From NCBI GenBank assembly GCA_026225555.1, contig JAMFSY010000151.1, positions 1 through 64,000 of the forward strand: DNA of 64,000 nucleotides. The letters run 5' to 3'. The notes beneath the pieces were generated by a model. That model saw nothing but the letters and a program-made list of their open reading frames with translations. It made no database searches and was not told the origin of the DNA. This DNA is from Methylacidiphilales bacterium (GTDB lineage Bacteria > Verrucomicrobiota > Verrucomicrobiia > Methylacidiphilales > UBA1321). Both the position numbers and the translations under genes were made by a program. Positions 8,302 through 15,650 of the stretch are shown here, one piece after another (the first letter of the stretch is position 1; the number at the start of each line of letters is the position of its first letter).

Positions 8302-11169
8302 TTACGCGACCGGAAGCTTCGGCAACACCGTCTTCAAGAATCGTCCCGTCTCGCTCGCCGGTTGCATGGCCACGAACTCGGGCGTTCCCTTGGCCACGAT
8401 TTGACCGCCCCCCTCGCCGCCCTCGGGACCGAGATCGATGACGTAGTCGGCGCATTTGATGACGTCGAGTTGATGCTCGATGATCACCAGCGTATTGCCC
8501 GCGTTGCGCAGCTTGAAGAGGACCTGCATGAGCTGCTCGATATCGGCGAAGTGAAGACCGCTGGTCGGCTCATCGAGGATATAGATCGTCCGCCCGGTCG
8601 CCCGCTTGGCCAATTCCGCTGCGAGTTTGATGCGTTGCGCCTCCCCGCCCGAAAGCGTCGTGGCGTGCTGGCCCAGTTTCAAATAACCCAGTCCCACGGC
8701 GGCGAGCGCGTCAAGCTTGTCCGATGCCGCAGGCACGTTGCGGAAAAAGTGGAGACCATCATCGACCGTCATCTCGAGCACATCGGCGATGTTGAGCCCC
8801 TTGTAGGTGATCTCCAGCGTCTCGCGGTTGAAGCGGCGGCCCGCGCACGCCTCGCAGGTCACATAGACCGGCGGGAGAAAATTCATCTCGATTTTGATCA
8901 CGCCGTCGCCCTCGCAATGCTCGCAACGCCCGCCCTTCACGTTGAAACTGAACCGGCCCGGCCCGTAGCCGCGAACACGCGAGGAAGGCAGTTGCGCGAA
9001 GAGATCGCGGATCGAGTTGAACGCGCCCGTGTAGGTGAGCGGATTGGAGCGGGGCGTGCGGCCGATGGGCGTCTGGTCGATGACAATGGCCTTGTCGACC
9101 AAATCCATTCCATCGATGGCATCGTGCGCGCCAGGCGCTTCCTTCGAGTGATAAAAATGGCGGAAGAGCGCGCGGCAAAGCACGTCGTTCACCAGCGTGC
9201 TTTTGCCCGAGCCGCTCACGCCCGTGACGCAGGTCATCAGCCCGATGGGGAAGCCGACCGTGACGTTGCGCAGATTATTTTCCCGCGCGTTGATGATCCG
9301 GATCCAGCCCGATTGCGGTTGCAGGCGGACCTTGGGCACGCGGATCGACTGGGTGCCGTTGAGAAATTGTCCAGTCAAGGATTTGGGATTCGCCATGACT
9401 TCGGCGACTGTGCCCGCCGCGACGATCTGGCCGCCGCGCGAGCCGGCGTGAGGACCGAGATCGACGAGATAATCAGCCGCGCGGATGGTGTCCTCATCGT
9501 GCTCGACGACGATGACGGTGTTGCCCAGATCGCGCAATTCGCGGAGCGTCTCCAGCAGCCGCTCGTTGTCCCGCTGATGCAACCCGATGCTCGGCTCATC
9601 GAGGATATAAAGAACGCCGGTGAGCTTGGATCCGATCTGCGTGGCAAGCCGGATGCGCTGGGCTTCACCCCCGGAAAGCGTGCCACTTTCCCGATCCAGC
9701 GTGAGGTAGCCGAGACCAACCTGGTTGAGGAAACCAAGACGCTGGAGAATTTCACGCCGGACTTCACCACCGATTTTTTCCTCCTGTGGCGTGAGCGCCC
9801 AGACGAGCAGCCAGCGTTGGGCAGCGGCGATGGAAAGATGACTGAACTGCGCAAGGTTGAGCCCCGTGCCCGGCGGGCCGCCAATCGTGACGGCCAACAC
9901 TTCGGGCCGCAAGCGCGCGCCGTGGCAGGCGTGGCAAGTCACGCGGGTCATGTACTGGTTGAGACGATGGCGGGTGAGTTCGCTCTTGCTGTCCTGGTAG
10001 AGACGTTTGAGCTGTGCGATGAGCCCTTCAAAGGGACGCTCCGCCGTGACCGTTTTGCCGCCGCGCGTGCTGGTGAAACTGATCTTTTCCTCACCGGTTC
10101 CTTCGATCAGAGCCTTCTGGAAAGCATCGCCGCACTCAACATAGGGGCGGGACATCGGCTCGCCGTAAGCCGACGCGAGAGCCTCAAGCTGACCGCGATA
10201 AAGTTTCGCCAAAGCGGGCGCGCTGCGCCGCCAAGGACCGACCGGCATCTGATCCAGCGGCACGCTGCCATCAGGAATGAGCAGCGTGGGATCGAAGACC
10301 GATTCCGTTCCGAGGCCGTCGCAAACGGGACATGCGCCTTGCGGACTATTGAACGAAAAATGGCGCGGCGTGATTTCCGCATAGCGATAACCGGTTTCGG
10401 GATCGAAGTTTTGGTTGCTCAGCGTCAACTCCTCGGTCACCGCGTCGGGTGGCCCGAAGAGGACGGTGACGACACCGTGACCGGTCTTGAGCGCGAGTTC
10501 GAGGGAATCGGTCAGGCGCGTCTGCACGGCGTCGCTGACCTTGAGGCGATCGACCACCGCCTCAATCGTATGGGCACGGGATTTATCCAAACGGGGCGGT
10601 TGTTCCAGCTCGTGGATCCGGCCATCCATACGCGCGCGGACGAAGCCCTCGCGCCGCAGCTTTTCCACCACGTCGCGGAACTCACCCTTTTGCTTCTGGA
10701 TCACCGGGGCGAGGATCTGCACCGCGGTGCCTTCCTTCGCGGTGAGCACGCGATCGACCATTTGTTGCACCGACCAGCGGCGCAGCGGTTTGCCGGTGAC
10801 CGGATGATGCGGCTGACCGACATGGGCGAAGAGGAGGCGCAGGAAATCGTGAATCTCCGTGGTCGTTGCGATGGTGGAGCGCGGATTGCCGCCGGCCGTA
10901 CGCTGCTCGATCGCAATGGCCGGGGAGAGCCCCTCGATGAAATCGACATCGGGCTTTTCCATTTGTTCGAGATACTGCCGCGCGTAGGTCGACAGGCTTT
11001 CGACGTAGCGACGCTGGCCTTCAGCATAGATCGTATCGAAGGCGAGGGACGATTTGCCGGAGCCGCTGACCCCGGTCAAGACCACGAGGGCATTGCGCGG
11101 CAACGTCACGGAGACGTTCTTGAGATTGTGCTGACGCGCCCCGCCTATCCGGATTTCCTCCATGGCCAT
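8302..11169 (-). CDS. uvrA: excinuclease ABC subunit A
   Basis: DNA-damage recognition ATPase of nucleotide excision repair, working with UvrB and UvrC. The product has 955 residues, starting from the ATG at 11169 ([16 protein letters not shown]), where homology begins. The upstream frame to 11388 looks non-coding. Two ABC modules are visible: Walker A GVSGSGKS at residues 33-40 and again near residue 650, and signatures [12 protein letters not shown] and [12 protein letters not shown]. Zinc-finger cysteines occur as CPVC plus CHAC in the first half and CEHC plus CEAC in the second, the latter needed for damage binding in the family. It is divergent from the DHPS-like gene. No SOS-type operator is evident by eye upstream. 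Confidence 0.97.
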
Positions 11170-11265
11170 AACCGAACAGCTTAACACGACCAGCTGCGAT
11201 CTCAAATGAAGCTGATCTCCGCGAGCATTTTTCCGTCGGGTCGGGAGGCGAAAGACGGGGACGCA

Positions 11266-11294
11266 TTGCAGAACTTGGTCAGGACGCCTAAGTT
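11266..11294 (+). promoter_or_regulatory. candidate promoter of the DHPS-like gene
   Basis: TTGCAG at 11266-11271 and TAAGTT at 11289-11294, spaced 17 nt. Transcription would begin at about 11301, the A of the ATG, giving a leaderless mRNA. No Shine-Dalgarno sequence is present. Confidence 0.3.
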
Positions 11295-11300
11295 CCTTCC

Positions 11301-12215
11301 ATGCTCGATCTCGCCACCCTGGCTGCGCTCCATGAGAAATATCGCGAGGCTGCGACGTTGCCCGTGGCCGGTTTTTCGCTGGGACCACAGCGCTTCGACT
11401 TCGAGACGAGTTCGTACCTGATGGGCGTGGTGAATCTATCCGCCGATTCCTGGTATCGTGAGAGCGTGGCCTTGAGCACGGAGGCTGCGGTGCGCCGCGC
11501 GCGGGTGCTGCATGAACAGGGTGCGGCGGTAATCGATCTTGGCGCGGAATCGTCCCTCGCCCACGCGGCGGAAGTGGATGGCTCGACGCAGGAAAGCAGG
11601 CTCATTCCCGTCGTGCGCGAACTAGCCGCGGCGGGCCTTTGCGTTTCGGTGGAGACTTACCACGTGGACGTGGCAACCGCCTGCCTCAAAGCGGGAGCGA
11701 AGGTGCTGAATCTCACCGGGACGATGGATACCGCGCGTATTTTTCGCGAGGTCGCGGATCATGAGGCGGGGGTGATCATCTGTTTCGTGCAGGGAGAAAA
11801 TGTCCGAAAGGTCGGCGACCTGGACCTGGGTCGCGATCCAATCGCGGCCCTTTATGAATTCTTTGCACACCAGGTCGAAGCGGCCACCGATGCGGGAGTA
11901 ACGCGGATTTGGATCGATCCGGGTCTCGGCTTCTATTATCGGAATCTGCAAGACAGCGGGGCGAGGATCCGGCACCAGATACAGGTTTTTCTCAATGGCT
12001 TTCGCTTGCGTGCGTTGGGCTGGCCGGTGTGCCAGGCGCTACCTCACGCCTTCGAGTGTTTTGAGGAGGAGGTACGCTCGGCGGAACCCTTTTTCGCCGT
12101 GCTGGCGTTGCTGGGAAAGACCGATCTGCTCCGAACGCACGAGGTTGCCAAAGTGCGCGGTGTGCTGCGAACGCTTGAGTTGGTGCGCGGGGCGGAAGAT
12201 ATCGTGACCGGATAA
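11301..12215 (+). CDS. divergent dihydropteroate synthase-like (pterin-binding fold) protein
   Basis: A 304-residue protein that aligns by eye with dihydropteroate synthase along its length. GVVNLSADSW (N45) matches the GVLNVTPDSF strand, IDLGAES matches IDVGGES, SVETY matches SVDTY, LNLTG matches INDVSG, DPGLGF matches DPGFGF, and LLRTHEVAKV matches the C-terminal RVHDV. Several substrate residues differ. The TRPG loop after GGES is replaced by SLAHA, and the catalytic-site Asp of SVDT is Glu118. DPGLGF continues as YYRN rather than GKN. An extra ~30 N-terminal residues precede the barrel. It may be a true but divergent FolP, or a paralogue with another pterin-related or unrelated substrate. 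It is divergent from uvrA and not in a folate operon. Confidence 0.75.
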   Translation: MLDLATLAALHEKYREAATLPVAGFSLGPQRFDFETSSYLMGVVNLSADSWYRESVALSTEAAVRRARVLHEQGAAVIDLGAESSLAHAAEVDGSTQESRLIPVVRELAAAGLCVSVETYHVDVATACLKAGAKVLNLTGTMDTARIFREVADHEAGVIICFVQGENVRKVGDLDLGRDPIAALYEFFAHQVEAATDAGVTRIWIDPGLGFYYRNLQDSGARIRHQIQVFLNGFRLRALGWPVCQALPHAFECFEEEVRSAEPFFAVLALLGKTDLLRTHEVAKVRGVLRTLELVRGAEDIVTG

Positions 12216-12238: not shown

Positions 12239-13645
12239 TTATTTCGCGCCCCAACCGAAGAGCACGACGGGCACGGTGCGCAGGAGGATTTTCAGATCGA
12301 GCCAGAGCGACCATTGGTCGATGTACTCGAGATCGAGGCGCACCCAATCCTTGAAGTCCGTGATCGTGTTGCGTCCCCTGACCTGCCAGAGACAGGTCAG
12401 ACCAGGACGGACACTCATGCGGCGGCGCTGGGTCACGTCGCCAAAGTTGGCCGTTTCGTAAAGGGGAAGCGGGCGCGGCCCGACCAGGCTCATCTCGCCC
12501 CGGATCACATTCCAGAGTTGGGGCAACTCGTCGAAGCTCGTGTGCCGGAGCAGGCGTCCGAGCGGCGTCACGCGCGGGTCATCCTTGACCTTGAAAACGG
12601 GGCCCTGCATCTCGTTGCGATCCTCCAGTTCCGCGCGCGCCTGCTCGGCATTGGTCACCATGGTCCGGAATTTGTACATGCGGAAGGCGCGCCCATGCCG
12701 GCCACTGCGGTTCTGCGAAAAGATGGCCGGCCCGCTGGAAGTCCAGCGAATGAGCAGAGCGATGAGCAGCATGAGCGGAAACGTCAGGATCAGAAGCACG
12801 CCCGCGCCGATGACATCGAGACAGCGCTTGGTGACCAACTCCCACGAAATGGCCGGCGCCGTCCGATAAATGAGCAGGGGTTGGCCGGCAAATTGATCGA
12901 ATTGCACGTGGGTAAAAAGCGTCTGGATGAAGTCGGCGGAAACCCAGGCCTCGACTCCCTCCGCCTCGCAGGCGAGCAGCGCCTCGCGCACTTGGGGGAC
13001 AATTCGTTCATCGAGACTGAACACCACGATATCGACGGTTTCGTCGTGGAGAGTTTCGATGAAACGGGCCAACCCTTCTTTGCGCAGGTCGAATTCCGCT
13101 TTGATCTCGAAGTGTTTGCCGGGCTGGGAAAGGAAGCGTTCCTTCCACCGAGACCGGTCTTCCGGAGCGCCGCAAAGGAGAATGTAATTGCGCAAATGCG
13201 CGTGGGTCCCTCTTTGCTGCAGCCAGATTTGAAACAACCAGATGCGGGCGGTCAGAAATGCGATGCCCATGAGGAAAAAGAGTCCGAGCGCCACGCGGCT
13301 GATGTTCGTTTGCGGGACGTGCACGATGATCACGCAGGTGAAGATGGCCAGCAGGACAAAGAAAAGGCCGCACGCAATTCGCCAGACCGATTGCATCAAG
13401 GGCACCGGCGGCTGGGTCTGGTAAATCCCCACGTATTGCAGGGCGAGAGGTCCGATCGGAATGGAGAGAAGCATCATCCAGTAACAGTTCGCGAACTGGG
13501 GTTGGACGGCATAGTCCTCAAATCCCTTGATGTCGTTCAGGATATAAAACCGCACGGCGTGCCCCAGCCAGATCGCCAAAGCGATCAGGCCGGCATCAAG
13601 TACCTGGAGAAACTGTTGATAAAAATTGTGCTGGCGGGAGAGCAT
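12239..13645 (-). CDS. exopolysaccharide priming glycosyltransferase (polyprenyl-phosphate sugar phosphotransferase)
   Basis: Membrane enzyme of the WcaJ/WbaP type that transfers a sugar-1-phosphate to undecaprenyl phosphate, the first step of capsule or exopolysaccharide assembly. It has 468 residues. There are about four N-terminal membrane segments in the first ~135 residues, a central soluble nucleotide-binding-like region, then a membrane hairpin (VIGAGVLLILTFPLMLLIAL) and the catalytic C-terminal domain. Diagnostic motifs there are KFRTMV, DPRVTPLGRLLR, SFDELPQLWNV and MSLVGPRP. It lies 53 nt downstream of fcl on the same strand, so GDP-fucose synthesis and polymer initiation are probably co-expressed. 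Confidence 0.93.
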   Translation of the reverse strand: MLSRQHNFYQQFLQVLDAGLIALAIWLGHAVRFYILNDIKGFEDYAVQPQFANCYWMMLLSIPIGPLALQYVGIYQTQPPVPLMQSVWRIACGLFFVLLAIFTCVIIVHVPQTNISRVALGLFFLMGIAFLTARIWLFQIWLQQRGTHAHLRNYILLCGAPEDRSRWKERFLSQPGKHFEIKAEFDLRKEGLARFIETLHDETVDIVVFSLDERIVPQVREALLACEAEGVEAWVSADFIQTLFTHVQFDQFAGQPLLIYRTAPAISWELVTKRCLDVIGAGVLLILTFPLMLLIALLIRWTSSGPAIFSQNRSGRHGRAFRMYKFRTMVTNAEQARAELEDRNEMQGPVFKVKDDPRVTPLGRLLRHTSFDELPQLWNVIRGEMSLVGPRPLPLYETANFGDVTQRRRMSVRPGLTCLWQVRGRNTITDFKDWVRLDLEYIDQWSLWLDLKILLRTVPVVLFGWGAK

Positions 13646-13698
13646 GCGGGAAAAGCACCCATCGCCATCTTAGCACCAAACATCCCCGGAGTGGGACG

Positions 13699-14643
13699 TT
13701 AAATTTTTGAAAGTTGGCGGCCATGGGCCAGCCACCATTGGTAGGTGTCCCGCAGGCCCTTTTCCAAGGGAATTTTGGCGTGCCAGCCCAATTCGGTCAG
13801 CTTCGTGACATCGAGCCATTTCCGGGGCGTACCGTCCGGTTTGGTCGTGTCCCATTCGATCTGGCCGGAAAAACCGATCACGCGGCTGATGAGGGCGGCC
13901 AGGTCGCGGATGGAAAGGTCCTCGCCACAGCCGACATTGACCAGTTCGGGCGAGTCGTAGCTCCCCATGAGAAAAAGACAGGCCTCGGCCAGGTCGTCCA
14001 CGTGAAGAAATTCCCGGTAAGCCGAGCCGGTTCCCCAAAGCATCACGCTTTTCTCGCCCTTCTCCTTGGCCAGGTGAAATTTATGCAATAACGCAGGTAA
14101 AACGTGCGAGGTCTTCAGGTCGAAATTATCTTCCGGCCCATAGAGGTTGGTCGGCATGGCCGAGATGAAATTCGCCCCGTATTGCCGGCTGTAGGCCTGG
14201 CAAAGTTTGATGCCGCAAATCTTAGCGAGAGCGTAGGCTTCATTCGTCGGTTCCAGCAGACCGGTAAGCAGCGCATCCTCGCGCAAGGGCTGTGGCGCGA
14301 ACTTGGGATAAATGCAGGAACTTCCGAGGAAAAGGAGCTTTTTGACGGAAACCGCATGGGCCCCGTTGATGAGGTTAAGTTCCACCTGCAGATTTTCGCT
14401 GAGAAATTCGACCGGCTGAGAGGCGTTGGCCATAATCCCACCCACTTTGGCGGCGGCGACGAAAACATAGGCAGGCCGCTCGTGCTCATAAAAGGCGCGA
14501 ACGGCGCGGGCGTCGCCAAGATCGAGTTCCGCGCGAGTACGCAGCAAAAGATTGGTGAAGCCCCGGGCGCGCAAAAGCCGCACCAGCGCGGAGCCGACCA
14601 TCCCGCGATGGCCCGCGACGAAGATGGAATCACCCGGGTTCAT
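13699..14643 (-). CDS. fcl: GDP-L-fucose synthase
   Basis: NADPH-dependent epimerase-reductase that converts GDP-4-keto-6-deoxy-mannose to GDP-L-fucose. It has 314 residues. The coenzyme motif GHRGMVG is at residues 11-17, [13 protein letters not shown] marks the serine region, and the catalytic Tyr and Lys lie in EAYALAK around residues 137-141. The motif [12 protein letters not shown] is typical of the enzyme. The ATG overlaps the gmd stop by 4 nt, giving a translationally coupled gmd-fcl pair. Confidence 0.96.
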
Positions 14644-15650
14644 CCGCGGATGTGCTGGCCGCTGAGTTGCTGATCGAGCAGGGCCCGATCAGCCGCGACC
14701 ATGATGCGGACGAGGTCCTTGAACGACGTCTTCGGCTGCCAGCCAAGAATGCGCTTCGCCTTGGCCGCGTCGCCGATCAGCAGGTCGACTTCGGCGGGAC
14801 GGAAGTACCGGGGATCGATTTTGACGAATTCCTTCCAGTCGAGATCGAGACAGCCGAAGGCCTCCTCCAGAAATTCACGAACAGAATGGGCCTCGCCGGT
14901 CGCAACCACGTAATCGTCGCCCTGCTCCTGCTGAAGCATCAGCCACATGGCCTCGACAAATTCGGGCGCATAGCCCCAGTCCCGCTGCGCGTCGAGATTA
15001 CCGAGATAGAGGTCCTTCTGAAGGCCCGCCTTGATCCGCGCGAGCGCCCGCGTGATCTTGCGCGTGACGAAGGTCTCGCCGCGCCGGGGCGATTCGTGGT
15101 TGAAGAGAATGCCGTTGCTGGCGTGCAGCTTGTAGCTCTCACGATAATTCACGGTCATCCAGTAGGCGTAGACCTTGGCCGCACCGTAGGGGCTGCGAGG
15201 ATAAAAGGGCGTGTCCTCCCGTTGCGGAACAGCCTGGACGAGCCCATACATTTCACTGCTCGAGGCTTGGTAAAAGCGTGCCTTGGGAGCGGTCTCGCGG
15301 ATCGCTTCCAGAATCCGCGTGGTGCCGAGACCGGTCACATCGCCGGTATACTCGGGGATTTCGAAACTCACGCGGACGTGGCTCTGCGCGCCGAGATGAT
15401 ACACTTCATCGGGCTGGAGATTGTGCAAAAACGTCATGATCGACGCGGAGTCGCTCAGATCGCCGTAGTGGAGAAAGAGCTTCACGCCGAGGACATGGGG
15501 ATCCTGGTAAAGATGATCGATCCGGTCGGTGTTGAACGAACTGGAGCGCCGGATGATCCCGTGAACCTCATAGCCCTTGGCAAGGAGGAATTCCGCCAGA
15601 TAGGAACCGTCCTGCCCCGTGATACCGGAGATGAGTGCTTTTTTGCTCAT
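14640..15650 (-). CDS. gmd: GDP-mannose 4,6-dehydratase
   Basis: First enzyme of GDP-fucose (and GDP-6-deoxysugar) synthesis: it turns GDP-mannose into GDP-4-keto-6-deoxy-mannose using bound NADP. It has 336 residues. [17 protein letters not shown] at the N terminus is the coenzyme site. SSSEMYG and [12 protein letters not shown] hold the catalytic residues, and [16 protein letters not shown] is a strongly conserved family block. Together with fcl and the priming transferase it forms a fucose-containing polysaccharide module. Confidence 0.97.

Follow-up and report, generated by a model that had tools for sequence, protein, structure and literature searches.

The window analyzed here is a stretch of 64,000 nucleotides, and at positions 11301 to 12215 of its plus strand lies an ATG-initiated open reading frame coding for a 304-residue protein resembling dihydropteroate synthase (DHPS), in the place where a preliminary description of this DNA had put it. 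Upstream is a divergent uvrA (8302-11169, minus strand, with its start near 11169), and downstream is a convergent gene that we named a sugar transferase by reading; as had been described, the DHPS-like gene is thus beside uvrA and outside any folate operon. The two features of first concern are:

11170..11300, no strand: divergent intergenic region between uvrA and the DHPS-like gene, 131 bp between the starts

11301..12215, plus strand: DHPS-like paralog, a single TIM-barrel domain with a short N-terminal extension (open reading frame, PF00809, AlphaFold2 model, matches to DHPS)

The minus strand at 12239-15650 carries the sugar transferase gene and then two nucleotide-sugar epimerase/dehydratase genes, likewise named from reading, which resemble GDP-fucose synthase and GDP-mannose dehydratase. 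A 940-residue open frame on the plus strand (8362-11184), antisense to uvrA, is most likely a by-product of high-GC codon usage and not a gene.

Comparison with the Pterin_bind profile (PF00809), which the preliminary description had proposed, gives the window protein 110.8 bits (cut-off 25.5). Against the DHPS model TIGR01496 it scores 128.6 bits, below the equivalog cut-off of 162.6, and the canonical FolP of the same genome scores 269.4. An AlphaFold2 model, for which 50 sequences of the window and of fetched loci were aligned, has a pLDDT of 92.2 and a pTM of 0.91, with no extra domain in the 304 residues. All of the 50 Foldseek matches listed for the model are DHPS or Sul enzymes, and the best match in VIA-align 2 is Yersinia pestis DHPS 3tyz (Z 30.7, rmsd 2.4 over 264 residues, 24% identity). 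The modeled protein has the DHPS (FolP) fold, as first claimed, with the profile score and this structural match both bearing out the assignment; a common fold is no proof of a common function.

Active-site residues were mapped in an alignment of E. coli FolP (L170), 33 members of the family, and 31 canonical FolPs of Verrucomicrobiota, and invariance was counted among 98 distinct orthologs of the window protein. The DHPS roles attached to the mapped residues are those that we presume from the structural literature, the pterin contacts of Sul1 excepted. The relevant segments, all on the plus strand, are:

11433..11435: N45, equivalent to E. coli N22 on the Mg/pyrophosphate side, kept (98/98; mapping)

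11451..11465: loop 1, WYRES (51-55) for FSDGG; W51 in 33/33, WYRES nearly invariant, TYRET in Roseibium

11541..11570: loop 2, GAESSLAHAA (81-90), in which [ST]LAH replaces the DHPS TRPG (ortholog conservation, mapping)

11652..11654: E118 in place of the pterin-contacting D96 (E in 98/98; D in 31/31 canonical FolPs)

11709..11711: N137, equivalent to N115 (pterin), kept (98/98)

11916..11933: DPGLGF (206-211), with D206 equivalent to D185 (33/33) and F211 to F190; P207, G208, G210, and F211 in 98/98

11934..11957: YYRNLQDS insertion (212-219) where DPGFGFGK has GK; Y212 and Y213 in 98/98, different in Roseibium

12036..12056: ALPHAFE (246-252) for GxSRKS, with the catalytic Lys gone; A246-L247-P248-H249 in 98/98 (mapping), QLTGAVY in Roseibium

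12132..12143: RTHE (278-281), with R278/H280 equivalent to the anion-binding pair R255/H257, kept (98/98)

The framework that the preliminary description considered retained (N45, N137, DPGLGF, and LLRTHEV) holds up in this mapping: N22, N115, D185, F190, R255, and H257 of E. coli FolP correspond to N45, N137, D206, F211, R278, and H280, and the equivalents of Asn22, Asn115, Asp185, Arg255, and His257 are each present in 33/33 family members. Elsewhere, R63/P64/G65 of TRPG have become L86/A87/H88, D96 has become E118, and S219-R220 have become P248-H249. Where the gaps are placed decides whether FolP K221 aligns with A250 or with E252, and residues 246-254 include no Lys or Arg. The R63 position is Leu in 32 of the 33 family members and Ile in one, versus Arg in all 31 canonical FolPs, and the fixed Glu118 agrees with the earlier report of Glu for the Asp of SVDT. 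Two earlier statements need amending: TRPG is indeed replaced, by LAH, after a motif that reads GAES and not GGES, and the FGK-to-FYY substitution is real and comes with the eight-residue insertion. Loss of the SRK Lys and the change of loop 1 from SDGG to YRES add to the differences first listed.

Among the 98 orthologs, N45, S47, S50, G81, E83, S84, E118, N137, P207, G208, G210, F211-Y212-Y213, A246-L247-P248-H249, R278, T279, H280, and E281 never vary, and conservation is at least 99% at 66 positions. Because E118, N45, N137, F211-Y212-Y213, P248-H249, R278, and H280 are among these invariant residues, the substitutions are not chance, and the active-site changes, as read from the alignments, mark a subfamily and not a decaying copy. 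The loss of the catalytic Lys and the loop-2 Arg would also fit a FolP descendant that has no catalytic role and instead binds pterin or acts in regulation. We consider this improbable, as invariant replacing residues and retained anion-binding residues suggest a tailored active site more than a dead one.

The DHPS-like gene is present in 31/40 genomes of its own order (E below 1e-90) and in 110/116 of a second Verrucomicrobiota order, that of a Pedosphaera genome (G283; E below 1e-40). The best 80 of 195 named relatives mostly have Verrucomicrobiota names, with a few MAGs labeled otherwise (e.g., Proteobacteria, Bacteroidetes). Sampling 240 genomes of the phylum (E 1e-25) gave nine matches, six of which are orthologs, every one of them in the own order; this sample is no measure of distribution, having no match from the second order despite the frequent carriage there. 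The other three (L114-L116) are canonical FolPs and were rejected as family members. No relatives were found in the viral contigs searched; the phage matches, among those listed, have 26-28% identity and resemble ordinary FolP. In a quick tree of 48 proteins, 17 paralogs and 31 FolPs form distinct clades, each with SH-aLRT 100. The paralog is more conserved than the FolP of the same genomes in 377/378 genome pairs (mean identity 0.70 versus 0.58), a comparison drawn from 28 genomes with both genes, 27 of which were reached via paralog relatives and may favor close paralogs. Relative to five close relatives, dN (NG86) is 0.11-0.16 and dS is above 1.2, and dN/dS points to purifying selection, as a rough sign only because dS is saturated.

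The source genome (4.09 Mb in 180 contigs, 94% complete) has one FolB, one HPPK (folK), one DHFR, and metH (MetH domain) on contig C67. The search for a canonical folP that the preliminary description had suggested recovers one, on contig C167 (241 bits; the protein scored above on TIGR01496), with TRPG, SVDT, GFGK, SRK, and RVHD all present; the window protein is therefore not this genome's only FolP with altered drug binding, one of the two possibilities first raised. Canonical folP, metH, and the paralog occur together in 27/30 related genomes reached through their loci. The other three (G273, G292, and G299, with loci L008, L054, and L073) have metH and the paralog, and canonical folP was not found in them. 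Genome G009 (96% complete) has HPPK and DHFR and, when searched with the paralog at E <= 0.001, yielded no further DHPS match; G009 and G273 are possibly one genome, agreeing in contig number and place. In G009/G273, G292, and G299 the paralog might supply DHPS activity, unless folP lies in assembly gaps, and with the same proviso G009 counts against a paralog whose acceptor is something other than pABA, the reading developed below.

These genomes are one reason to consider a second true DHPS, an isozyme serving as a backup or tolerating sulfonamides, whose altered pocket would make dihydropteroate from 6-hydroxymethyl-dihydropterin pyrophosphate (DHPPP) and pABA, and the shared fold and the kept equivalents of N22, N115, D185, R255, and H257 are in keeping with it. 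We nonetheless think it rather unlikely: the TRPG loop and the SRK lysine are gone family-wide, the score is below the DHPS equivalog cut-off, nearly all carriers have a canonical folP, and conservation above that of FolP is not expected of a backup. Replacement of DHFR was rejected as a general role, as the source genome has DHFR, which in the own order occurs in 16/31 paralog carriers versus 3/9 non-carriers. Across this order a DHFR_1 match is missing in 21/40 genomes and HPPK is present in 36/40; the genomes without DHFR_1 probably use a different dihydrofolate reductase. Biopterin_H is found in 0/40 genomes, and a cofactor for an aromatic amino-acid hydroxylase is thus not needed here.

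The best functional hint comes from outside Verrucomicrobiota, from Roseibium porphyridii plasmid NZ_CP120864.1, where a protein annotated plainly as dihydropteroate synthase is 43% identical to the window protein over 95% of its length and falls inside the paralog clade of the quick tree, on a long branch. It has YRET, GAEST, SVETYH, NLTG, and RSHEV-like motifs in common with the window family, which it also resembles in having neither TRPG loop nor SRK lysine; YYRNLQDS and PHAF are missing, and the two groups may therefore not catalyze the same reaction. Its gene is the middle one of a one-strand operon (L117:19507-21663) of a FolB-like gene, the DHPS-like gene, and an SDR gene. The FolB-domain product scores 58.9 bits with Pfam FolB, over the cut-off, and below the cut-offs of the NCBIfam folB models; for the SDR, the second-best NCBIfam model is pteridine reductase, below its cut-off. 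The operon hints at a pterin pathway outside the folate operon. No specific ortholog of the Roseibium SDR was found in 40 genomes, with SDRs of 32-37% identity in 6/40 (E <= 1e-25). Next to the operon are genes whose annotations read proline racemase and hydroxyproline dehydratase.

Among 80 Verrucomicrobiota loci there is no conserved same-strand partner of the DHPS-like gene and no pterin operon, with genes called by a home-made codon-usage script that missed the DHPS-like gene in one locus (L076), and we rejected operon inference in this phylum for lack of such a partner. A UvrB/C-motif protein (c2) occurs in 11/80 loci, on the same strand every time, and a GlcD-like oxidase, named by reading, in 4/80. 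The commonest neighbor is a convergent PF10017 (EgtD-like) methyltransferase gene, in 18 loci by gene calls and 20 by HMM. It belongs to a methyltransferase family conserved across both of these Verrucomicrobiota orders, of which members include:

L045:8885-9874, minus strand: EgtD-like (PF10017) methyltransferase

L031:8916-9896, minus strand: EgtD-like (PF10017) methyltransferase

G000:C16:38968-39918, in the source genome: EgtD-like (PF10017) methyltransferase

This family is only distantly related to EgtD: it scores 51.6 bits on TIGR03438, against 290.9, and its best solved relative scores 53 bits. In the printed alignments it has Phe at a position where EgtD 7scf has Glu and 4pip has Ala; that Glu presumably binds imidazole, and with Phe in its place histidine may not be the substrate. 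In the own order, a family-specific profile finds the EgtD-like gene in 25/31 carriers of the DHPS-like gene versus 0/9 non-carriers, and the corresponding figures for the second order, where 34 of 110 carriers were tested, are 20/34 carriers versus 2/6 non-carriers (p = 0.38); the p-values for co-occurrence are not independent, because the genomes are related. The two genes are separated by 10-34 kb in six own-order genomes of family f9, by 23-259 bp in six second-order genomes, and by 176 kb in G319, and are on different contigs in many other genomes. The association is partial and loose, and it stays a lead and not proof, because genes in convergent orientation share no transcript and because related genomes were compared.

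A methyltransferase neighbor over part of the range is one reason to consider that the barrel might carry out a different pterin chemistry, for instance transfer of methyl or one-carbon groups or hydrolysis of a pterin ester, like the methyltetrahydrofolate-binding members of PF00809. This Pfam family also covers the MetH domain, including that of the source genome's metH, and the positions of N137 and D206 are ones that we take to be pterin ligands in DHPS and in methyltetrahydrofolate-type enzymes alike. Such chemistry seems unlikely to us, however, with the best structural and profile matches listed being DHPS and not methyltransferases, and the DHPS pyrophosphate set of R278, H280, and N45 invariant.

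The reading that we favor, at a little short of an even chance, is that the window protein is a neofunctionalized DHPS paralog that uses the pterin pyrophosphate with an acceptor other than pABA. The retention of the pterin-side Asn and Asp of DHPS and of its Mg-pyrophosphate Asn/Arg/His set supports this reading, and the YYRNLQDS insertion falls where, in DHPS, the helix lining the pABA site begins. The separate paralog clade of the quick tree and the co-occurrence with canonical folP in the source genome and in 27/30 others also speak for it, and FolB and HPPK of the source genome could supply the pterin donor. We predict that DHPPP from the FolB/FolK route would serve as donor, held through N137, D206, and E118, with its Mg-pyrophosphate held by N45, R278, and H280, and that it would ionize as in DHPS (SN1-like) to yield a pterin-methyl cation. 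Loop 2 (SLAHA), YYRNLQDS, and PHAF would bind the acceptor in place of pABA, and attack on the cation by this other nucleophile would give a non-folate pterin conjugate. Beyond this, the conjugate might be reduced by the SDR in Roseibium, and in Verrucomicrobiota might be tied to the EgtD-like methyltransferase. Against this reading, no pterin operon accompanies the gene in Verrucomicrobiota, and pterin binding could just as well be weakened by the loss of the Lys and the replacement of Asp by Glu. The preliminary description's other possibility, an enzyme with a new reaction, is thus favored by the fixed family-wide changes, by conservation exceeding that of FolP, and by the Roseibium pterin operon, with the reaction itself standing as a prediction.

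More broadly, and more tentatively, we see some prospect that the paralogs form a new pterin-conjugating family, part of the core gene set in two Verrucomicrobiota orders and of sporadic occurrence in Alphaproteobacteria, that makes a non-folate pterin cofactor, maybe in one pathway with the EgtD-like protein as an amino-acid N-methyltransferase. A rebuilt acceptor site that is near-universal in two orders and conserved beyond FolP would point, for a large lineage of bacteria, to a pterin metabolite that is so far missing, and naming such relatives "dihydropteroate synthase" misleads the prediction of folate pathways and sulfonamide targets.

A search of the open-access literature, mostly at listing level, found no paper on the window protein's family, and the closest known systems are other DHPS-like proteins. 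FolP itself (EC 2.5.1.15, TIGR01496; E. coli, Yersinia pestis 3tyz, Thermus 2dqw) shares the whole fold and the equivalents of Asn22, Asn115, Asp185, Phe190, Arg255, and His257. The window family differs from FolP by the loss of the TRPG loop and SRK lysine, by D96E, and by WYRES in loop 1, and the window protein has eight extra residues after DPGxGF. The window protein probably works like a DHPS yet should not be filed as one, because several defining residues are absent and its score is below the TIGR01496 equivalog cut-off. The Sul1/Sul2/Sul3/Sul4 enzymes are likewise divergent DHPSs altered on the pABA side, whereas the window protein scores 44-78 bits on their NCBIfam models, whose cut-offs are 475-600. 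According to an excerpt of PMC10328974, Sul1 hydrogen-bonds pterin through Asn101, Asp173, and Lys212; Lys212 is without a counterpart in the window protein.

Actinobacterial FolP2 ("DHPS 2", 2vp8) is also a second DHPS-like paralog beside FolP, and 2vp8, the only FolP2 compared, seems not to be especially close to our family, scoring with its profile well under ordinary DHPS (107 bits, versus 162 for Thermus DHPS). According to excerpts of PMC1971073, folP2 of M. leprae fails to complement an E. coli folP mutant, the gene lies among cell-wall genes in high-GC Gram-positives, and paralogs of this kind may act elsewhere; part of PMC8222631 discusses a Nocardia FolP2 described as "inactive". For an added reductase activity that would replace DHFR, as in the H. 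pylori-type bifunctional DHPS/dihydropteroate reductase, the DHFR counts above give no sign, and the window protein has no extra domain. In Methylacidiphilum fumariolicum SolV, folP1 and folP2 are both transcribed (folP2 RPKM 163, 236, and 133), according to an excerpt of PMC3404531, which cites Hou et al. (PMC2474590) for the idea that an alternative FolP could replace DHFR in Methylacidiphilum. Family f9, which we read as the Methylacidiphilum-type family, has one paralog and one further DHPS match in 6/6 genomes. In contrast to what the DHFR-replacement idea envisages, the genome containing the window has both the paralog and DHFR.
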